DNA of 64,000 nucleotides, from NCBI RefSeq assembly GCF_030812255.1, contig NZ_JAUSSH010000002.1, forward strand, positions 62,001-126,000, written 5' to 3'. Shown in pieces: positions 12,621-21,062 of the stretch. Under the pieces are notes generated by a model that saw only the letters and a list, made by a program, of their open reading frames with translations, did no database searches and was not told the origin of the DNA. Both the position numbers and the translations under genes were made by a program. The stretch's first letter is position 1. The number at the start of each line of letters is the position of its first letter. This DNA comes from Paeniglutamicibacter psychrophenolicus (lineage in GTDB: Bacteria; Actinomycetota; Actinomycetes; Actinomycetales; Micrococcaceae).

Positions 12621-13894
12621 GTGCCGGCGGCGTGCTTGGCGCCGAGACCCTGGCAACCGTTGAGCGCGACCTCGCGGCCACCGACGAGCTGCTGAGCAAG
12701 GGCTACCCGGGGGACTCCGGGGTCCGCCAGCCGATCCACACGCTCTACATCCCGGCCGACCGCTACACCCCCGAGCTGCCCGCAGCCATGGGCGCGGCGG
12801 CGCTGGAAAAGGCCGGCGGCACCGCCGGCCTGGCGGCCCTGGCCGGACGGCTGGGCCTGTCCCAGCCCGGCGAGCTGGCCGAGCTGGTCGCCGCGAAGCT
12901 GGAGCGCGAGCCCATCGAGGACCTGCGCCTTGACTTCGAGGACGGCTATGGGGATCCCGGGGACGACATCGAGGACGCCGCCGTCATCAAGGCCGCGCAG
13001 CTGGTCACCCAGGCCGTTGCCGAGGGAACGGCCCCGCCGTTCATCGGCATCCGCTTCAAGTGCTTCGAGGCGCCCACCCGGGCCCGCGGGCTGCGCACCC
13101 TTGACCTGTTCGTCTCCACGCTGGCGCGTGCCGGCGAGCTGCCCGAGGGCCTGGTGCTGACCCTTCCGAAGGTCACCACCGTCGCCCAGGTGAAGGCCAT
13201 GGTCTTCGTCTGCGAGCAGCTCGAGGCCGCCCACGGCCTGCCGGCCGGACGCCTGCGCTTCGAGGTGCAGATGGAAACCCCGCAGCTGATCCTCGCCGCC
13301 GATGGCACGGTGCCCTCCGCGGCACTGATCCACGCCGGGAAGGGCCGCGTTTCCTCGCTGCACTACGGCACCTACGACTACTCGGCCTCGCTCGGCATTG
13401 CCGCGGCCTACCAGTCGATGGAGCACCCGGCAGCGGACTACGCCAAGAACGTCATGCAGGTGGCCGTTGCCGGCACCGGTGTGCACCTCTCCGACGGCTC
13501 GACCAACATCCTGCCCCTCGGCGAGGCTGATCAGGTCGAGGCTGCCTGGGCGCTGCATGCCCGTCTGGTGCGCCGCCACCTGGAACGCGGCATCTACCAG
13601 GGCTGGGACCTGCACGCCCACCAGCTGGCCACCCGCTACCTGGCGACCTACGCGTTCTACCGCGAGGGCTTTGCCGCCGCGGCGGTGCGCCTGCGCAACT
13701 ACGTCCACAAGGTCGAATCGGCCATCATGGACGAGCCGGCCACCGCGAAGGCGCTGGCCAACTTCATCCGCCGCGGGCTGATCTGCGGTGCGTTGACGGG
13801 TGGGGAAATCACCGAGCAGGCAGAAATTTCATTGACCACCCTAGAAGCAATCGCGCTTGCGCGAGCAACACAGACGGAGGATTCACATGTCTAA
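12617..13894 (+). CDS. DUF6986 / CitE-like (HpcH/HpaI superfamily) protein of unknown function
   Basis: The 425-residue protein resembles the TIM-barrel CitE / malyl-CoA lyase superfamily. It has an acidic metal-binding stretch (LRLDFEDGYGDPGDDIED), RFEVQMETPQLIL with the conserved Glu, and GRVSSLHYGTYDYSASLGIA near the active site. The reaction is unknown; such enzymes cleave or form C-C bonds next to a carboxylate or CoA thioester. It starts with GTG inside the malate synthase stop (4-nt GTGA overlap) and ends 8 nt inside allE, so it is translationally coupled in the middle of the glyoxylate/ureidoglycine operon. That position suggests a substrate derived from glyoxylate or ureidoglycolate, which is inference. 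Confidence 0.8.
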   Translation: MSAGGVLGAETLATVERDLAATDELLSKGYPGDSGVRQPIHTLYIPADRYTPELPAAMGAAALEKAGGTAGLAALAGRLGLSQPGELAELVAAKLEREPIEDLRLDFEDGYGDPGDDIEDAAVIKAAQLVTQAVAEGTAPPFIGIRFKCFEAPTRARGLRTLDLFVSTLARAGELPEGLVLTLPKVTTVAQVKAMVFVCEQLEAAHGLPAGRLRFEVQMETPQLILAADGTVPSAALIHAGKGRVSSLHYGTYDYSASLGIAAAYQSMEHPAADYAKNVMQVAVAGTGVHLSDGSTNILPLGEADQVEAAWALHARLVRRHLERGIYQGWDLHAHQLATRYLATYAFYREGFAAAAVRLRNYVHKVESAIMDEPATAKALANFIRRGLICGALTGGEITEQAEISLTTLEAIALARATQTEDSHV

Positions 13895-14723
13895 GATCCA
13901 GACCCGAGCCGATGCAAGCTACTACTCCAACTACGGCGGGCACCCGCCGCAGACCGACCTGCTGACGGACCGCGCCATCGTCACCGAGGCGTACACGGTG
14001 ATCCCGCGCGGCGTGCTGCGCGACATCGTCACCTCCGTCTTCCCGGAATGGACCGGAACCCGTGCCTGGGTGCTGAACCGCCCGGTCGCCGGCGGGGCGA
14101 CCACCTTCGCCCAGTCCATCGTCGAGGTTTCCCCCGGCGGCGGCTCGGAGAAGCCGGAGCCGCAGGCCGAGGTCCAGTCCTTCCTCTTCGTGGTCGCAGG
14201 TGCACTGACCGTGACCATCAACGGGCAGACCCAGACCCTGGAAGAAGGCGGCTTCGCCTTCGCCCCGGCGGGTGCCACCTGGTCGGCGCACAACAACGGC
14301 GTCGAGGTTGCCACCTTCCACTGGATCCGCAAGCGCTACGAGGTCCTGGCCGGCGTCGCCGCCCCGGGCCCGGTCTTCGGCAACGAGAAGGACATGGCAC
14401 AGGGTGCCATGCCTGAAACCGACGGCAAGTGGCGCACCACGCGCATGCTTGACCCGGAGGACGTGGCATTCGACTTCGGCGTGAACATCGTGACCTTCGA
14501 ACCGGGCGCATCGATCCCGTTCGCCGAGACCCACGTGATGGAGCACGGCCTGTACGTGCTCGAGGGCAAGGCCGTCTACCGCCTGAACGCGGACTGGGTT
14601 GAGGTCGAGGAAGGGGACTACATGTCCCTGCGCGCCTTCTGCCCGCAGGCCTGCTACGCCGGTGGACCGTCAAACTTCCGCTACCTGCTCTACAAGGACC
14701 AGAACCGCCAGATCGCGCTGTAG
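13887..14723 (+). CDS. allE: (S)-ureidoglycine aminohydrolase
   Basis: AllE releases ammonia from S-ureidoglycine to give S-ureidoglycolate in allantoin catabolism, using Mn2+. The 278-residue protein is a bicupin. The first cupin covers about residues 60-130 (QSFLFVVAGALTVTINGQTQTLEEGGFAFAPAG), the second about residues 190-270 (VTFEPGASIPFAETHVMEHGLYVLEGKAVYRL) with the metal-binding His/Glu/His residues of the active cupin (ETHVMEHG). The ATG at 13887 has ACGGAGG 6 nt upstream and overlaps the previous gene by 8 nt. Allantoate amidohydrolase, which makes its substrate, is not in this window. A terminator hairpin follows. Confidence 0.92.
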   Translation: MSKIQTRADASYYSNYGGHPPQTDLLTDRAIVTEAYTVIPRGVLRDIVTSVFPEWTGTRAWVLNRPVAGGATTFAQSIVEVSPGGGSEKPEPQAEVQSFLFVVAGALTVTINGQTQTLEEGGFAFAPAGATWSAHNNGVEVATFHWIRKRYEVLAGVAAPGPVFGNEKDMAQGAMPETDGKWRTTRMLDPEDVAFDFGVNIVTFEPGASIPFAETHVMEHGLYVLEGKAVYRLNADWVEVEEGDYMSLRAFCPQACYAGGPSNFRYLLYKDQNRQIAL

Positions 14724-14737
14724 TCCCGCAAAAGGCC

Positions 14738-14793
14738 AAAGCCGGGTGTACGCGAATCCAATCTTCCTGGATTCGCGTGTACCCGGCTTTTTT
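14738..14793 (+). terminator. rho-independent terminator after allE
   Basis: A 23-bp near-perfect stem (14738-14760 with 14768-14790, two mismatches) with a 7-nt loop is followed by a run of six T. It ends the malic enzyme-aceB-DUF6986-allE operon and faces the end of the convergent DinB-like gene. Confidence 0.88.
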
Positions 14794-14815
14794 GCTCTCC
14801 GGATTCGGGCCGTGC

Positions 14816-15514
14816 CTACCAGGCGGGCAGCACCGGCAGTTCCCCGTTGGCTTCGACGTGCCGTCCCTGTCCGCGGGAAAGCCATTCGAGCATGCCCTCG
14901 CGGTCGGATTCCACGCGCAGGGCACCGTCGCCGATGACCCACGTATCGCCTTCCTCGGTCACCAGGGTCATGCCCGGGGCGTTCTTGGCCCGCATAGTGC
15001 GCACCGCGGCCTCGACGGCGTCCAACTGGGAATCCGGGTCGGCCTCCGCGATGGTCCAAGCGGTGTCCAGGTCCTGGTGGTGGACGACGATTTCGGCGAT
15101 GCGCAGCGCCACAATGGAGGTGGCGGGGATGACCTTGCCGTGCAGGTCCACCTCTTCGACGGCGAGCTGGCCGGTCAGGCGTTCGGTCTGCTCGGCGAAG
15201 AATTCGGCGGAGGTTCGGAATTTCTCGACCAGTTCGTGGCCGGGGAGTGCCGCGAGGGCAGCGATCTCCTCGGCGCGGGCCTCGGGCGATGCGTAGAGCT
15301 GCTGCTCGTCCCCGGTGGTGGCCCAGTCGATGAGCTTCACCAGGGCACGGCCGTTGGAGGCGAGGTGGGCGATGACATCTGCCCTGCTCCAGCCCTCGCA
15401 CAGCGATGGTGCGGCCATTTCATCGGCGGACAGGGTCTCAATCGTTGCCAGCATCATGGAGGTTTCGCGGCCGAGGCGGGAGAGGTCAGAGTGCAAGCGG
15501 GCGGGGTTGATCAT
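14816..15514 (-). CDS. maleylpyruvate isomerase-type (DinB-fold) protein, TIGR03083-like
   Basis: The 232-residue protein has an N-terminal DinB-like four-helix bundle of the actinobacterial maleylpyruvate-isomerase superfamily. Features are LCEGWSRADVIAHLASNGRALVKL (with a metal-ligand His), and ALRIAEIVVHHQDLDTAW, which supplies further His ligands. The C-terminal half (GMTLVTEEGDTWVIGDGALRV) resembles the sterol-carrier-like domain. The family contains mycothiol-dependent isomerases and many uncharacterised mycothiol-linked proteins, so the specific reaction is open. The ATG at 15514 lies 6 nt from a minus-strand TATGGT, consistent with leaderless transcription. The 186-bp gap to the PIN gene shows nothing else. 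Confidence 0.75.
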   Translation of the reverse strand: MINPARLHSDLSRLGRETSMMLATIETLSADEMAAPSLCEGWSRADVIAHLASNGRALVKLIDWATTGDEQQLYASPEARAEEIAALAALPGHELVEKFRTSAEFFAEQTERLTGQLAVEEVDLHGKVIPATSIVALRIAEIVVHHQDLDTAWTIAEADPDSQLDAVEAAVRTMRAKNAPGMTLVTEEGDTWVIGDGALRVESDREGMLEWLSRGQGRHVEANGELPVLPAW

Positions 15515-15700
15515 GTGGACACCATACCAACGCGCAAGCGTCTTTTTGCTCCGCAAATCGATCCATAGGCAACCGCTATCAACTCATATCTCTGTGTCCG
15601 TTGGGCTTCCGCGGAGGGCATCTCGGAGGGCTAGCATTGACGCGCGGCGCGTGCGCTGGCCGGCACGATGAAGGATCCGGGACGGTGCCCGGATGCAGGC

Positions 15701-16333
15701 CTACGGATACGGCTTGTGCCAAAGCCCGGCGTCCAACAGCCCGCTGCGTTCGATCGGAACCAAGCCGTCATCGAGGCACCTGAGCCGGGTGTAGATCTCC
15801 CGCATTTCCCCCTTGCCGGCAACCAGTCCGTGCTGCGCGGCCAACTTCAGGACTGTGACGGTGCCGACCAGCGCGATCCTGCCCACGCGCGGGTTCCCCG
15901 CCTCGCGCAGGCGCTTCAAGCGGCTGCGCTGGACGCTGGCAAGCTGCCGCCCGGCACCGTCATCAATCAGGACGGTGACCTCTGCGCCGGCCTTGGCTGC
16001 GACCAGTGCGTGGGCGATGACCATGATCTCCCCGAGGTCCTTGCCGGTCTTCATGCGGTCGGCCATGGGCATCCCGGCGACGTCGGTGACCGCCCGTGCC
16101 AACTCATCGGTCCACTCGTCGGACAGGATCTGCATGTATTGGCCCAGCCTCGACCAGACAACCGAGGCATGCCCAAAACGGCCTTCTTCCCGATTCGCCT
16201 TGCGCAGGACCTCGTCGCGCACCGTCTCGGGCGCACAGAGCGGCCCGAGCACACCGATGAGCAGGCGCTGCTTGTTGATGGAGAAGAAGTTGAGCGCGGG
16301 TCCTGCATCGATGACCGGTCGGTGTGCCGTCAA
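15701..16333 (-). CDS. PIN-domain protein, third gene of an XRE-ImmA-PIN operon
   Basis: The 210-residue protein has the spaced acidic residues of a PIN nuclease: Asp9 in VIDAGPALNF, Asp40/Glu41 in TVRDEVL, Asp99/Glu102 in GKDLGEIMVIAHAL, and Asp124/Asp125 in VLIDDGAGRQL. PIN domains are Mg2+-dependent RNases, most often toxins of VapBC pairs. This one is longer than typical VapC (about 130-140 residues), with an extra C-terminal half. The start is a TTG overlapping the stop of the metallopeptidase gene (TTGA), so the two are translationally coupled. No VapB-like antitoxin is seen; the XRE and ImmA partners are the candidates for control. Confidence 0.72.
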   Translation of the reverse strand: MTAHRPVIDAGPALNFFSINKQRLLIGVLGPLCAPETVRDEVLRKANREEGRFGHASVVWSRLGQYMQILSDEWTDELARAVTDVAGMPMADRMKTGKDLGEIMVIAHALVAAKAGAEVTVLIDDGAGRQLASVQRSRLKRLREAGNPRVGRIALVGTVTVLKLAAQHGLVAGKGEMREIYTRLRCLDDGLVPIERSGLLDAGLWHKPYP

Positions 16334-17181
16334 GTCTCGTCCTGTCCGGCTCCCGGCCCCGGGCCCCCGAACTCGTCGAGTTCGGGCAAGTCCCAGGGCA
16401 CCGTTGGCACCTGGATGTCGTCATCGAGGCTGTCATCGTGGGATACGGGGATGATGCCCGCCTCGCGAAGCTCACGCTTGGCGTCGGCAGCCTCGATCCC
16501 GCGCAGCGTTGCAATTGCCTGCGCCGAGACCACCGAATCCCGGTAGCCGGCAATGGCTCGCCGCAGGAGCTTTTGCGGTGCCCGGCTCTTTTGCGACTGC
16601 ATTTGCAGTGCCTGGTACTGGTCGGCCCAGCCAAATTGGGCGGCAAGCCGCGGTGTCGAGTACTGCCACCAGGCATCTTTCGTGGCGGCATCGACCAGAT
16701 TCATCTCGGCCATGGCGATAAGTGCCATCTGGGGAGAAACCAGGAACCATTGCACCACGTCCGAGAGCACGGCCGGATCATCCACGAGGCGGCCATCGAG
16801 GTACTCGCGCAGGCCCTTGCGCGGAATGAGCAGGTGTCCTGCAAAGGCGTCGGCACGCATTTCCCCGTGGCTGCGGCGATCCCAGTTGCCCCCGCCGTAG
16901 TCGGCCCAGTCGTTGAAAACGAGGTGGGCCAGCTCGTGGGCCAGCGTGCTGCGCTGGCGCATGGGGTGGGGGGACCTTGCGACTCCCATGAACATGACGT
17001 CGCGTTCGGGGTCCCGCACGGTCAACCCATGCTCGTGTGTGTCATCGACATCCAGCACGGCCACGTCGATGCCGGTGGCCTGTTCGATCAGCGAAACCAG
17101 GTCTCCGAGGGGCTGCAGGCCCAGGCGGTGGTGTTCACGGAATTGTGCCGCCGCCGTGAATGCTTCTTCCGTGGGTCTCAT
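16330..17181 (-). CDS. ImmA/IrrE-family metallo-endopeptidase (COG2856)
   Basis: The 283-residue protein carries the zinc motif HELAH at residues 82-86 with a probable third ligand Glu107 in SHGEMRADAFAGHLLIP, as in ImmA of ICEBs1 and IrrE/DdrO-cleaving peptidases. These enzymes cleave a cognate XRE repressor and so derepress a mobile element or a stress response. About 100 residues precede the motif and an unusually long helical/acidic tail follows (residues 130-283, ending in PELDEFGGPGPGAGQDET). It starts 12 bp after the XRE gene, its natural partner, and overlaps the PIN gene by 4 nt. The peptidase probably acts on the XRE protein; this is inference. Confidence 0.86.
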   Translation of the reverse strand: MRPTEEAFTAAAQFREHHRLGLQPLGDLVSLIEQATGIDVAVLDVDDTHEHGLTVRDPERDVMFMGVARSPHPMRQRSTLAHELAHLVFNDWADYGGGNWDRRSHGEMRADAFAGHLLIPRKGLREYLDGRLVDDPAVLSDVVQWFLVSPQMALIAMAEMNLVDAATKDAWWQYSTPRLAAQFGWADQYQALQMQSQKSRAPQKLLRRAIAGYRDSVVSAQAIATLRGIEAADAKRELREAGIIPVSHDDSLDDDIQVPTVPWDLPELDEFGGPGPGAGQDET

Positions 17182-17193
17182 GGTGAAAGGTCC

Positions 17194-17532
17194 TTAGGAG
17201 GCCTGGATGCCTTGGCGGTCGAGGTACTCGTCCAGTTCCAGGAAGTTGAGCAGGGCCCCGCGCATGCGGTTCATGTCCGATCCGTCGGTTGCCCGGGCGG
17301 CGCACTGGACCCGGTCCGGGAGCGTGCGCATGCCGCTGAGTTGGGCAACGGTGCGCCCCGTCGCCCATGCGATCTGGATGATCTCGGGCATTTTTGCCAA
17401 GCGTTCCCCCGACAGGATCCGGGAGATCGTCGATTGTGAGATGTCCGTTTGGTCGGCCAGGGCGCGTTGGCTCAGGTTCGCGCCGCGCATGGCTTCGGCG
17501 ATGAGCGCCCCGATGTCTTTTGCTGTCGTCAT
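17194..17532 (-). CDS. XRE family helix-turn-helix regulator, first gene of the XRE-ImmA-PIN operon
   Basis: The 112-residue protein has an XRE helix-turn-helix in its N-terminal half (LSQRALADQTDISQSTISRILSGERL) and a short C-terminal part (NRMRGALLNFLELDEYLDRQGIQ) that probably dimerises or is the peptidase target. The ATG at 17532 is preferred because GCGAGG lies 9 nt upstream; the ATG at 17538 is only 3 nt from it. The longer frame to 17841 reads through the promoter. XRE-ImmA pairs regulate mobile elements and toxin modules, and this one probably represses its own operon via the palindromes upstream. Confidence 0.85.
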   Translation of the reverse strand: MTTAKDIGALIAEAMRGANLSQRALADQTDISQSTISRILSGERLAKMPEIIQIAWATGRTVAQLSGMRTLPDRVQCAARATDGSDMNRMRGALLNFLELDEYLDRQGIQAS

Positions 17533-17578
17533 GGCCATGCACCTCGCCTTCGCGCTTTCGTGGTTGTCAAAAACTCTT

Positions 17579-17605
17579 TGAATCATTAATGCCCCTACTG
17601 ATTCA
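17579..17605. promoter_or_regulatory. inverted repeat in the XRE promoter region
   Basis: TGAATCA (17579-17585) and TGATTCA (17599-17605) are exact reverse complements with a 13-nt centre, giving 20 bp between half-site centres, about two helical turns. They lie 47-73 bp before the XRE start in an AT-rich patch, as expected for an autoregulatory operator. Confidence 0.5.
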
Positions 17606-17663
17606 GTATAGTTGAACCCCTGGTTCCCGTGCCAGGGATATCCCGGGGAATCGGCGACCTCAC

Positions 17664-17696
17664 ACCATATGCGCCACAGCTTGTGGCACATATGGT
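17664..17696. repeat. 33-bp near-perfect palindrome between XRE operon and acetyltransferase
   Basis: ACCATATGCGCCACA (17664-17678) is followed after 3 nt by its reverse complement with one mismatch (17682-17696). It lies about 130 bp upstream of the XRE gene and 94 bp before the acetyltransferase on the other strand. It may be an operator or a trace of a recombination site; no T-tract suggests a terminator. Confidence 0.6.
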
Positions 17697-17789
17697 TCGA
17701 TGCCCGCCGGGGCTCCCGGCAACCATCAATTTCGATCGACAGGACCCGGCCTAAACCTCCGTGGTGTTCTCCGCCGGTATGTTGGGGGA

Positions 17790-18398
17790 GTGACTCAAAC
17801 GGTGGAGATGACACGACGGCTGATACTCGACAGGCCCTCAACCGGCGATGTGGACGAGGTGTTTGCCATCGCCAACGACCCTCGCACCTGGTCGCACCTT
17901 CCCGAGGCGCTGGTCACGGACCCGGACCAGACCGCTGCCTTGTTGGCAATGTTCCACGCGGGGTGGAAGTCCAACGGGCTTGCCGCCTGGGTCGTCCGCC
18001 TGGGAAACGCTCAAGGCCTTCCGGGCCTGGCACCCAGCCAGCTGCTCGGGACCGGGGGAGTGAACCTGATCCAGACGGGTGCCGGGACCGAGATCTGGAA
18101 CCTGGGCTACAGATTGGACCCGGCCTGCTGGGGGCACGGGTTCGCCACCGAGCTGGCCACGTACGCGGTCGAACGCGCCCGAGCCACCAGTAAAGAAGTT
18201 CCGGTCATAGCCAGGGTGCTATCCACCAACGCCCCCTCGGCCAGGGTCGCGCAGAAGGCAGGGCTGCAGCTGAGGTGGGAAGGCCCGGCGACTGTGCAGA
18301 CAGTGGCAGCCGCGGGGGGAGCCGCGCCCACGCGACTCATCCTGGCCGACCGGGAGCTGGAGCCCGAGGTTCTTGAATGGCTGGTCTCCCGCGGATAA
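17790..18398 (+). CDS. GNAT family N-acetyltransferase (RimJ/RimL-like)
   Basis: The 202-residue protein has the GNAT fold of the RimJ/RimL type: RRLILDRPSTGDVDEVFAIANDP at the N-terminus, GTGGVNLIQT, the acetyl-CoA-binding stretch GYRLDPACWGHGFATELATY, and RVLSTNAPSARVAQKAGLQ. It transfers an acetyl group from acetyl-CoA to an amino group; the acceptor is unknown. The GTG at 17790 follows a -10-like TATGTT (17778-17783) by 6 nt, suggesting a leaderless message; the ATG at 17808 is the alternative. Its neighbours are unrelated. Confidence 0.82.
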   Translation: MTQTVEMTRRLILDRPSTGDVDEVFAIANDPRTWSHLPEALVTDPDQTAALLAMFHAGWKSNGLAAWVVRLGNAQGLPGLAPSQLLGTGGVNLIQTGAGTEIWNLGYRLDPACWGHGFATELATYAVERARATSKEVPVIARVLSTNAPSARVAQKAGLQLRWEGPATVQTVAAAGGAAPTRLILADRELEPEVLEWLVSRG

Positions 18399-18432
18399 CT
18401 GCGTCTTCCGCGGGAGACCGCTTCCAATGCCG

Positions 18433-18924
18433 CTATTCGCCGTCGCGCACGCGCCGGGCGAAGTTCAACACGTGTTCCTGCAGCACGTTGATGCGCCGGT
18501 GCACTTCGGCCTCGCGGTCAAAGCCGATGTACGGCAACGACTTCATCATGCGGACATTGGCGGAGCATTCGAAGTTGGCACATACCAAAAGGCCGATGGT
18601 GTCGCCGTCGCGACCCGCCTGCCCGCCGGCCTTGGCGTTGAAGAACAGCACGTCGTTGGGCAGGTCAACGTCTTCACACCACGAGCACTGGGGGCGGTTG
18701 CGGATCTTGCCCTCGGCCTTGCGGAACATGATGCCCACGGGTGCATCGCCCAGGGAGGTGACGACGTAGCCGACCAGCGGCAGTTTCGGATCCCGCCACC
18801 CCAGGAATTCAAGGTTGTCCCAGTCCAGGGAGCCGAAGTTTTCCGGGAGGGTGATGGCCTTGCGCTCGCGCAGCGAGGCGTTGATGAAGGAGGCGCGGAT
18901 TTGTTGTTCGATGAGGGGGAGCAT
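18433..18924 (-). CDS. FBP_C domain (elongation factor G-binding-type, treble-clef zinc) protein
   Basis: The 163-residue protein matches the C-terminal zinc domain of FusB-like EF-G-binding proteins. Four cysteines, C80 and C83 (QCSWCEDV) with C115 and C120 (LLVCANFEC), form the treble clef, and DWDNLEFLGWRDPK lies before it. FusB-type proteins bind EF-G and rescue ribosomes stalled by fusidic acid. Actinobacterial stand-alone FBP proteins are not well studied, so the EF-G role is inference from the family. The gene is convergent with the acetyltransferase. Confidence 0.75.
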   Translation of the reverse strand: MLPLIEQQIRASFINASLRERKAITLPENFGSLDWDNLEFLGWRDPKLPLVGYVVTSLGDAPVGIMFRKAEGKIRNRPQCSWCEDVDLPNDVLFFNAKAGGQAGRDGDTIGLLVCANFECSANVRMMKSLPYIGFDREAEVHRRINVLQEHVLNFARRVRDGE

Positions 18925-19219
18925 GGAGAAAAGGTCCTGACTGTCTTGCCGCCGCTTCGCCGCAGCGCGGGCGAGGGGGCACGTTCGGGGTGGGTTTACG
19001 CGTTCCGCCGGTGCAGAGGCGCAGGAAAGCGCGAAAAACCTGCAGCGGATGCGGGCGCGCCACGGGGGCGCAAAAAATCACCGAAAGCGGACAGCCCTAT
19101 CTCGAGCCGGCGAAAAAGACGCCGGCTACCCCCGAACGCCCGCGGGGCAGCTGGGTCGAGATCGTGATGGACATGGGAAAAAGTATACGCCCGCGCAACG
19201 GGTGTCCGTCGGGACGCGG
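18925..19219. other. 295-bp gap between FBP and SUMF1-domain genes
   Basis: No convincing gene is seen. The stretch is GC-rich; a minus-strand TATACT lies around 19186 and may belong to the FBP promoter, but no matching -35 is clear. Confidence 0.3.
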
Positions 19220-20098
19220 TCAGTCGCGCAGCAGGCTCCGCAACGGGGTCCATCCGAGGGGAAGCGGGCTGCGGATATCGGCGCGTTGCCGATCAGCCTC
19301 GGCGGACCAGCCCTGGGCGGCTCTCGCGCCACGCTCGCCGACGGCCCCGCGGGCCACCCGGAAGCCGACGTCCTCCAGCACGGCGTCGGGTGCACTGCCG
19401 CGGCGCACCGATGCCCGGCAGCTCCAGGCCTTGTCGTCCCAGCCGCCGCCGCGCAGGCTCCGGTAGTCGCCGTAGCGGGCGGTGTCCGCGTAGTCCCAGC
19501 ACCACTCCCAGGCATTGCCGATCATGTCGAACAGGCCAAAGCCGTTGGGCTGCTTGCCCCCGACCGCTTGCGGGCCATCGAGGCCGTCGGCCGAGGTCCA
19601 GGCGATGTCAGCCAGCGGCCCATGCGTCGGGGTGCTCGTTCCGGCGCGGGCGGCAAACTCCCATTCGGCTTCCGTGGGGAGCCGGTAGCCCTCGGCCGCC
19701 ACGTTCCAGAAGACGGTATCGGCGCCGAAAGTGTAGGCGGGCTCGAGCCCCGCCAAGAGGGAAGCGGCATTGCACCAGCGCACCGCATCAAACCAGGTCA
19801 CCGGATGCATCGGAACGCTCGATCCCGGCCGGCACCTCGGGTTCAGGTCCGGGACTTGCGCCCATTGGTCGCCGGTGACATGCGTGTTGCCGAGTTCGAA
19901 GGGGCGCAAGTGCACCTCGCGAACCACCTCGGAACGGGCATCGCGCATGCGAATGCTTCCGGACGGGATCGAGGCCAGGGGAATCTCCACGATTCGATCA
20001 TGCCCCGGGATGCGGGGAACGGGATAGCGGTCGGTCGCAGATGACCCCACGGGCTGGAACGGAATGGATCGCGAGCGCACGTCATCCAATGGGCGCAC
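19220..20098 (-). CDS. formylglycine-generating enzyme-like (SUMF1/FGE-sulfatase domain) protein
   Basis: The protein of about 292 residues has the SUMF1 fold signatures: HPVTWFDAVRWCNAASLLAG, YRLPTEAEWEFAARAGT, NGFGLFDMIGNAWEWCWD, and RSLRGGGWDDKAWSCRASVRR with VGFRVAR. Active formylglycine-generating enzymes use two Cys near the RGG motif to oxidise a sulfatase Cys. Here the motif has RGGGWDDKAWSC, with Asp in the position of the first Cys, so FGE activity is doubtful. The domain also occurs in other roles (for example iron-dependent sulfoxide synthases and structural domains). The start is uncertain: the GTG at 20098 avoids overlap with the divergent LysR gene. No sulfatase is nearby. Confidence 0.7.
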   Translation of the reverse strand: MRPLDDVRSRSIPFQPVGSSATDRYPVPRIPGHDRIVEIPLASIPSGSIRMRDARSEVVREVHLRPFELGNTHVTGDQWAQVPDLNPRCRPGSSVPMHPVTWFDAVRWCNAASLLAGLEPAYTFGADTVFWNVAAEGYRLPTEAEWEFAARAGTSTPTHGPLADIAWTSADGLDGPQAVGGKQPNGFGLFDMIGNAWEWCWDYADTARYGDYRSLRGGGWDDKAWSCRASVRRGSAPDAVLEDVGFRVARGAVGERGARAAQGWSAEADRQRADIRSPLPLGWTPLRSLLRD

Positions 20099-20144
20099 CG
20101 CCGGGGAAGTAGCGCGGCGGGTCGCGATGCTGTAGACCGGAGGC

Positions 20145-21062
20145 ATGTTCATCCGGCAACTCGAGTACATGGTCGCCCTCGCGCGCGAGCGGCACTTCGT
20201 GCGTGCCGCCCAATCCTGCTCGGTCTCCCAGCCCGCCCTCTCGGAGGGGATCCGGAAGCTGGAAAAGGAACTGGATGTTCCCCTGATTCGCCGCGGCAAC
20301 AAGTTCGAGGGCCTGACCGCCGAGGGCCAGGAGCTCGTCACCTGGGCACATCGGATCCTTGCGGACCGGGACGCCATGAACGACGAAATCGCCGCCATGC
20401 GCACCGGGGTCTCCGGCCAGCTGCGCTTCGGCTCCGTTCCCACCGCCTCGATCGCGGTGTCGCTGCTGAACGCACCCTTCTGCGGGCTCCATCCCCGGGC
20501 CTCCGTCCAGGTGGTCTCCGACCTGACCTCCCAAGACGTCCTGGGCAAGCTGCGGTCCTTCGAGATCGATGCGGGCATCACCTATATCCAGGATCCGGTG
20601 CCGGAGGAATTCCGCGTTCTCCCGCTGTACCTGGAACGCCATGTGCTGCTGACCTCCAGGGGTGCCATGACGGCGTCCTCCGCGACCTGGGCGCAGGCGG
20701 CGGCCCTGCCGCTGTGCCTGCTGGCCCCGAGCATGCAGGGCCGGCGGCGCCTGGACGGGGTCTTTGCCGAGGTGGGGGCCGTTCCCGCGCCCCGGCTCGA
20801 AACCGACTCCGTGGCCTCGCTCTTCGCGCACGTGCAGACGGGCTCGTGGTCGACGATCGTGCCCGCGGCCTGGCTGCATCTCTTCGGGGTCTCGGCCAAT
20901 CTGCAGGCCGTGCCGTTGGTTTCTCCCCGGCGCTCCGTGCCGGTCGGGTTGGTGACCCTGGCCCGCGACCCCGCTCCGGTGTTGGTCCGCGCCTTGCTGT
21001 CAGTGGCGGAATCAACCGATCTCACGTTCCTTGAGCACCTCCCGGGCGAAAAATCACGATAG
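20145..21062 (+). CDS. LysR family transcriptional regulator
   Basis: The 305-residue protein has the LysR winged helix at residues 1-60 (MFIRQLEYMVALARERHFVRAAQS, QPALSEGIRKLEKELDVPLIRR) and a periplasmic-binding-protein-like effector domain (GQLRFGSVPTASIAVSLLN, IDAGITYIQD). The inducer and targets are unknown. It is divergent from the SUMF1-domain gene with about 46 bp between them, the usual arrangement for a LysR regulator and its target. The FUSC-type transporter downstream on the same strand is the other possible target. GGAGG stands directly before the ATG. Confidence 0.87.
   Translation: MFIRQLEYMVALARERHFVRAAQSCSVSQPALSEGIRKLEKELDVPLIRRGNKFEGLTAEGQELVTWAHRILADRDAMNDEIAAMRTGVSGQLRFGSVPTASIAVSLLNAPFCGLHPRASVQVVSDLTSQDVLGKLRSFEIDAGITYIQDPVPEEFRVLPLYLERHVLLTSRGAMTASSATWAQAAALPLCLLAPSMQGRRRLDGVFAEVGAVPAPRLETDSVASLFAHVQTGSWSTIVPAAWLHLFGVSANLQAVPLVSPRRSVPVGLVTLARDPAPVLVRALLSVAESTDLTFLEHLPGEKSR

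Follow-up and report, generated by a model that had tools for sequence, protein, structure and literature searches.

The question raised by this locus is whether three adjacent genes, for an XRE-family repressor, an ImmA/IrrE zinc peptidase and a PIN-like protein, form one module, and which part the peptidase would play in it. The genes lie in a stretch of 64,000 nucleotides from Paeniglutamicibacter psychrophenolicus, referred to here as the window. A first-pass annotation had read them as a peptidase-controlled RNase module in which the peptidase cleaves the repressor. It was concluded that they probably constitute a toxin-antitoxin module whose antitoxin has two subunits and is gated by the peptidase. 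The module is possibly triggered by stress or phage; we infer the trigger, the toxicity, the cleavage and the defence role alike.

The genes were found in the order XRE, ImmA/IrrE, PIN-like on the minus strand (17532-15701) and are predicted to form an operon (Table 1). Their annotated layout on one strand was confirmed, with a 12-bp gap between XRE and ImmA (17182-17193) and a 4-nt overlap between ImmA and PIN (16330-16333), where the TTG start of the PIN gene lies over the TGA stop of ImmA. The annotated repressor and ImmA/IrrE-type peptidase were likewise borne out by the HTH_3 and Peptidase_M78 matches. In the C-terminal part of XRE, R74, A79, R80, L94 and Y103 were at least 90% conserved and L104 was invariant across 29 aligned copies. 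The order of the triad was conserved in other genomes, with all three genes intact in 24 of 35 loci examined by tblastn. The dN/dS values against the nearest relative were 0.14 for XRE, 0.25 for ImmA and 0.23 for PIN, and all three genes are under purifying selection. Pairwise distances of the three proteins correlated at 0.90-0.95 over 24 triads, a result that shared ancestry alone would also give. From the gene order, the dN/dS values and the correlated distances, the arrangement is more than chance. No Rfam match was found in 13000-21000, and no tRNA gene in the window.

Table 1. Features of the XRE-ImmA-PIN locus, in window coordinates.
Feature	Position	Strand	Details
XRE-family repressor	17194..17532	-	112 aa; HTH and conserved C-terminal part; HTH_3 E 2e-9
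ImmA/IrrE zinc peptidase	16330..17181	-	283 aa; Peptidase_M78 E 1.1e-11
UPF0175-like C-terminal extension of ImmA (residues 191-256)	16414..16611	-	UPF0175 E 0.0097, profile comparison; proposed PIN-binding part of antitoxin
PIN-like protein, proposed RNase toxin	15701..16333	-	210 aa; PADLOC PDC-S70, profile match, conserved acidic residues
Operator-like inverted repeat TGAATCA-N13-TGATTCA	17579..17605	-	Upstream of XRE; conservation and genome uniqueness
TATACT, -10-like hexamer	17605..17610	-	One base in common with operator

The third protein had been annotated as a PIN protein, and this assignment was upheld by a route other than Pfam. No Pfam PIN model matched the window protein, and PIN and PIN_6 each matched only one of the 25 aligned relatives at E<1, both weakly. 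The DUF4411 model (PF14367) matched neither the window protein nor any of the remaining 24 sequences of the alignment at E up to 1, and the family's own profile found no PIN structure in the PDB. The sole PADLOC matches at E up to 1 were four PDC-S70 models, which place the protein in that candidate defence family (E 3.4e-9). Single-protein searches of Pfam, PHROGs, NCBIfam and the PDB were set aside as a means of identification, as none of them recovered a PIN protein; the assignment came solely from comparison with other ImmA-linked PIN proteins. The profile of the 25 relatives, one of which is a degenerate copy (L048), matched 15 PIN-like proteins encoded beside other ImmA genes at 97.2% (E 3.9e-11, 171 columns). 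These 15 proteins gave matches at E up to 1 to DUF4411 (four), DUF3368 (two), PIN (two) and PIN-TPR-GreABC (one), and their profile matched solved PIN structures. Among the acidic positions of the window family, D9, E41 and D124 were at least 90% conserved and E102 was invariant, and 5 of the 10 plasmid records with a homologue carried the label "PIN domain-containing protein". Because of the profile-profile match, the conserved acidic positions and the plasmid-record labels, the third protein was accepted as PIN-like. AlphaFold models, built from four sequences per alignment, were too weak for use (mean pLDDT 66.6 for PIN and 47.3 for ImmA).

The zinc site of ImmA was located at HELAH, residues 82-86 (DNA 16924-16938), together with E107. 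The residues H82, E83, H86 and E107 were invariant in all 29 aligned ImmA copies, which suggests that catalysis matters. The family profile matched IrrE (3dte) and CapP (7t5t), and the window protein matched PADLOC RmrA models (best E 4.6e-16). The match of its C-terminal extension to Pfam UPF0175 (PF03683) scored 16.0 bits, compared with a curated cut-off of 27.9. The extension was therefore named UPF0175-like only, being below the cut-off and related by profile. At E up to 1, the UPF0175 match recurred in 16 of the 29 ImmA proteins of the family (best 1.3e-4), and it was also seen in 4 of the 15 other PIN-linked ImmA proteins (best 2.6e-7). Against a profile of four solo UPF0175-like proteins, the extension of the window family matched at 75.6% and that of the other PIN-linked ImmA proteins at 91.2%, while the two extensions matched each other at 95.5%. 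The controls against the solo proteins gave 3.4% for the XRE HTH, 0.1% for the peptidase domain and 0.1 and 0.2% for shuffled sequences. The two extensions compared with the XRE HTH gave 0.6% and 20.7%, and the 20.7% figure shows that a general HTH likeness forms part of the UPF0175 signal. A UPF0175 search of 149 genomes of the phylum returned 13 places, of which five were in proteins strongly matching the ImmA profile and a sixth was a small UPF0175-like protein that matched this profile at 5.2e-5 only. By reading, a PIN-like gene followed four of the five strong ImmA-UPF0175 proteins, and two of these four were found again by search. The second ImmA-domain protein of the genome (C4:51178-51477) was set aside as a long RamB-like regulator, also by reading.

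The relation between the extension and a PIN neighbour was surveyed in 90 genomes of the phylum, which contained 89 places with an ImmA domain, 87 of them outside the genome itself; the best 60 of these 87 were taken. PIN neighbours were sought by phmmer, the seeds being 24 PIN proteins of the family plus 10 products of downstream genes picked by eye as PIN-like, the PIN labels having been assigned partly by eye before Pfam and the profile comparison supported the group. Among these 60, a PIN gene lay directly downstream of 15 of the 35 ImmA proteins in which 60 or more residues follow the domain and of none of the 25 shorter ones (Fisher p 1.2e-4), where the threshold is the length of the extension and not its UPF0175 likeness. 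When eight RamB-like proteins were left out of the same 60, the counts were 15 of 27 and 0 of 25 (p 4.6e-6). HTH_3 was present within the same protein in 11 of the 15 PIN-linked ImmA proteins, separate XRE genes being the minority form there.

Upstream of XRE, at least one TGAWTCA was present in 30 of 31 loci, compared with a mean of 0.37 and a maximum of 3 in 500 base-composition shuffles. The exact pair TGAATCA-N(11-14)-TGATTCA was present in 26 of these loci, 21 of which have a spacer of 13 nt. The pair at 17579-17605 occurred once in the window (0 in 100 shuffles) and once in the 4.57-Mb genome, where the reversed control gave 0. TANNNT was found in the same register as the window TATACT in 16 of the 26 loci. 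A sigma-70 scan found no consensus -35 near TATACT, and the sigma-70-type consensus scan of 15500-17900 gave neither promoter nor terminator. The operator pattern was found in 32 of 388 class genomes and the reversed control in 10. Of the 32, 12 carry a known XRE-ImmA locus of this family, with a single match each, at that locus, and one of the 12 (G226) is without PIN. Sixteen of the other 20 are smaller than 3 Mb, and their matches could be due to chance in A+T-richer sequence. The pattern was absent from seven class genomes with PIN matches (G197, G337, G401, G455, G478, G493 and G532). The distribution was read as that of a dedicated autoregulator, with the repeat as the candidate XRE site. 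Between this site and the GNAT gene there is a further inverted repeat (17664-17696; 15-nt arms, 93% complementary, 3-nt loop), which is single copy in the genome with up to two mismatches allowed. It probably belongs to the GNAT gene, because a comparable repeat precedes the GNAT gene of G126 (L040:12263-12293).

PIN homologues were detected in 14 of 197 family genomes and 18 of 394 class genomes, the genome itself counted in both, and in 10 of 72,556 plasmid records (Rhodococcus 7, Pseudonocardia 2, Arthrobacter 1); none was found in 50,697 phage records. This patchy, mobile distribution is as expected for the type of system predicted by Makarova et al. in 2009. The PIN protein of P. gangotriensis was 70% identical to that of the window. 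All four plasmid regions opened had the order HTH, ImmA/IrrE, PIN homologue, the last gene being labelled hypothetical in two. A scan of viral contigs with one peptide pattern gave one locus, on a contig from a viral collection that starts exactly at a PIN gene of the window family (L116:1-651), so its called border would cut the operon.

The 35 loci were also compared for integrity; they are not mutually independent, and several are from draft assemblies in which some frameshifts may be errors. The PIN gene was interrupted with XRE and ImmA intact in six (L046, L060, L062, L063, L066 and L068), although in L060 the stop takes off only the end of PIN. One locus that entered through another search (L192, the same place as L084) keeps XRE, ImmA and the operator and has no PIN match. 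The reverse was seen in L057, where PIN is intact, XRE is gone and 44 ImmA residues are left, and three loci were fragments or at contig ends (L048, L052 and L065). This skew to PIN loss would suit a toxin and proves nothing. XRE and ImmA are fused in one frame in Nocardiopsis kunsanensis (L005:9332-10477; L063:12036-13181), which has a second ImmA-like frame about 4 kb downstream of the fusion.

On one side of the triad is a mycothiol-maleylpyruvate-isomerase-like gene and on the other a GNAT gene, and the neighbourhood is one of ordinary metabolism. That phage and integrase genes do not adjoin it, as annotated, agreed with the scan of 10 flanking proteins, none of which matched such families at E 1e-5. 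The families of these 10 are commonplace ones of metabolism and regulation, so the site lacks the look of a defence island. The same flanking proteins, together with the absence of homologues from the phage records, led to the rejection of control by a mobile element. A close orthologue of the left flank was found in 10 of 15 genomes of the genus, and the triad is there in three (its own, G126 and G022). Of the seven without it, six show no trace of the three genes in the stretch examined, and G111 has a decayed XRE remnant of 77 residues (L094:965-1195; 69% identity with XRE of P. gangotriensis) with no ImmA, PIN or operator near it. The flanks in G050 are about 100 bp apart. From its presence and absence at the shared site, the triad was gained or lost at one site in the genus. 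Extra genes lie between the triad and the right flank in two sister genomes (L040:9788-12239 and L041:10254-12024); from their translations they were read as an FAD-linked oxidase and a methyltransferase in one and a sugar kinase in the other.

The function of the triad was predicted mainly by reference to VapBC52 of M. tuberculosis (Rv2515c/Rv2514c), described in PMC13273310 (2026) as a fused XRE-peptidase antitoxin with a PIN tRNase toxin. According to that report, the C-terminal domain of VapB52 occludes the PIN active site in the crystal complex, the N-terminal domain is needed for toxin binding and was the part that held the toxin in pull-downs, the C-terminal domain not doing so, the zinc site is dispensable for binding, and ssDNA triggers self-cleavage. 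Rv2514c was toxic in M. smegmatis and was rescued by Rv2515c (TASmania, PMC6504116). The PDB entry 9vzy was taken to be VapBC52 because its 3 and 6 chains of two proteins agree with the numbers stated in PMC13273310 for the complex. The profile of PIN-linked ImmA proteins matched 9vzy_A at E 4.8e-65, with the C-terminal part included, and the window ImmA family joined this profile at 99.9%. The window-family XRE matched the N-terminal parts of the fused proteins at 98.9%; the alignment spans 104 columns, the HTH making up most of it.

By homology to the VapBC52 crystal complex, XRE and ImmA would jointly neutralise PIN, which would be a toxic RNase, perhaps cutting tRNA like its characterised relative. 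The UPF0175-like extension of ImmA would cover the PIN active site, with XRE giving the other contact, and XRE bound to the conserved operator over the -10 and start region would keep the operon low. A signal, most likely ssDNA from damage or phage replication, would activate the peptidase, and the activated ImmA would cut XRE in trans. With this cut, repression of the operon would be lifted and the antitoxin loosened at the same time, whereupon PIN would be freed and growth would stop.

This interpretation is supported by the conserved gene order, the co-divergence, the purifying selection and the intact zinc site, by the occurrence of the operator-like site just once, at the locus, in each of the 12 operator-bearing class genomes known to carry XRE-ImmA, and by the 9vzy_A match, the 99.9% family join and the biochemistry in PMC13273310. 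It is also consistent with the PIN genes after 15 of 35 long-extension and 0 of 25 short ImmA proteins (best 60 of 87), with the UPF0175 relation, and with interruption of PIN only in 6 of 35 loci, as opposed to 1 of 35 with PIN kept and XRE and most of ImmA lost. Against it stand that one locus (L057), the 20 of 35 long-extension ImmA proteins for which no PIN gene was found downstream (best 60 of 87), the PIN family having no Pfam or PDB match of its own, and the missing switch Cys in ImmA and FR motif in XRE discussed below. The pull-downs in PMC13273310 further imply that the ImmA extension alone may not suffice. The first-pass RNase module under peptidase control remains the best-supported reading, with the logic of VapBC52; through its extension the peptidase protein is probably also part of the antitoxin and more than a repressor cleaver. 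A role in dormancy or in defence against phage is possible. The more specific proposal, that the repressor, itself a subunit of the antitoxin, is cleaved in trans by the peptidase, that a single cleavage lifts repression of the operon as well as opening the toxin complex, that gating proceeds without a cysteine switch of the VapB52/CapP type, and that the toxin belongs to a PIN family without a Pfam model, is advanced tentatively, as plausible and a little short of likely.

ImmR/ImmA acts by derepression; in integrative elements and prophages integrase or phage genes adjoin it, whereas none were found in the window (10 flanking proteins, E 1e-5). A scheme of derepression only, which was the first-pass version, would have XRE repress the operon, ImmA cut XRE and PIN serve as an inducible RNase without a direct protein antitoxin. 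It was deemed unlikely, as it does not accord with an extension that tracks PIN neighbours (best 60 of 87), with the occlusion of the toxin by the VapB52 counterpart of this extension (PMC13273310), or with the rescue from Rv2514c toxicity by Rv2515c (PMC6504116), even though it would explain the operator and single-site regulation and is the way in which DdrO/PprI and CapH/CapP work (PMC10904395).

The opposite simplification is that ImmA, with XRE, neutralises PIN as an antitoxin and proteolysis has no role in release, as in RosmerTA. The invariant H82, E83, H86 and E107 in 29 of 29 copies, suggesting that catalysis matters, and the self-cleavage of the VapB52 relative (PMC13273310) make this quite unlikely, despite the match of ImmA to PADLOC RmrA (best E 4.6e-16), the service of ImmA-domain proteins as antitoxins in RosmerTA (PMC10440598) and VapB52-VapC52 binding that has no need of the zinc site (PMC13273310). 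Another possibility is that the three genes are a mobile addiction set with no part in the host's response to stress or phage. The patchy occurrence (14 of 197 genomes of the family, and PIN homologues in 10 plasmid records), the interrupted PIN genes and the 7 of 10 same-genus left-flank genomes without the triad, one with a decayed XRE remnant, are consistent with such a set; it was considered quite unlikely in view of the purifying selection on all three genes, their shared location in three species of the genus and the invariant peptidase active site.

The preferred reading, a toxin-antitoxin module with a peptidase-gated antitoxin, can be set against several known systems. VapBC52 shares with the triad an XRE-type HTH, an IrrE-type zinc peptidase, a C-terminal helical extension and an adjacent PIN toxin, homologous by profile. 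On sequence grounds, the window XRE and ImmA resemble VapB52 made in two pieces, XRE corresponding to its N-terminal part and ImmA to its middle and C-terminal parts, and the window PIN protein resembles the VapBC52 toxin. The XRE and peptidase of VapBC52 are one polypeptide, whereas in the window they are two genes (fused in one close relative, L005/L063). Three differences may matter. VapB52 has a cysteine switch in the interval from HExxH to the third zinc ligand, and the window ImmA has no Cys there, this interval containing Cys in 4 of 29 ImmA relatives; the FR cleavage motif of VapB52 was looked for in the window XRE and not found; and the VapBC52 toxin belongs to the DUF4411 PIN family, whereas the window PIN family has no Pfam model.

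The idea of such a module is not new, having been predicted in 2009 (PMC2701414) and shown for a fused relative in 2026 (PMC13273310). Makarova et al. (PMC2701414) listed PIN as a partner of Xre-COG2856, and predicted a three-component system in which the Xre repressor or antitoxin would be the substrate of the protease. The same three domains, an Xre HTH, a COG2856-type HExxH peptidase and PIN, are found here in one predicted operon. The 2009 system is a prediction only; the available text mentions no C-terminal extension or operator and gives PIN operons mainly for fused proteins. For Geobacillus, PMC6929052 describes an unfused XRE-COG2856 pair whose operon includes one further gene, a hypothetical one. 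PIN toxins are known to be paired with UPF0175/COG2886 (PMC2701414, PMC6929052, PMC4963859), a small, helical, antitoxin-like domain to which the ImmA extension is related; unlike the window protein, it is described there as a solo antitoxin without peptidase.

In the NetFlax network (PMC10440598), ImmA is an antitoxin hub linked to PIN-like domains, and RosmerTA (RmrA/RmrT) is reported there to have an ImmA-domain antitoxin and, in the characterised case, a Rosmer toxin that depolarises membranes. The window ImmA is RmrA-type by PADLOC, and the network links ImmA to PIN-like partners. No Rosmer toxin partner was found, the window partner being PIN-like by profile and matched in PADLOC by PDC-S70 only. 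CapH/CapP and DdrO/PprI also have a separate XRE-type repressor and an ssDNA-activated peptidase and act by derepression (PMC10904395); their output as described is CBASS or DNA-repair genes, whereas that of the window would be a PIN toxin of the same operon. The literature searched, mostly excluding subscription papers and preprints, gave no description of a split form with a UPF0175-like extension.

The earlier interpretation is largely in line with published systems, and what the window contains is a split version of them in three genes, whose operator-like site is well defined; it is a good test bed and not a new category. If the reading is correct, the jobs combined in VapB52, namely DNA binding, toxin anchoring, active-site plugging and the proteolytic trigger, would be placed on separate proteins, and each could be tested singly in harmless bacteria. 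For work on genomes, a UPF0175-like extension at the C-terminus of an ImmA protein would serve as a pointer to a PIN gene, which often lies beside it.
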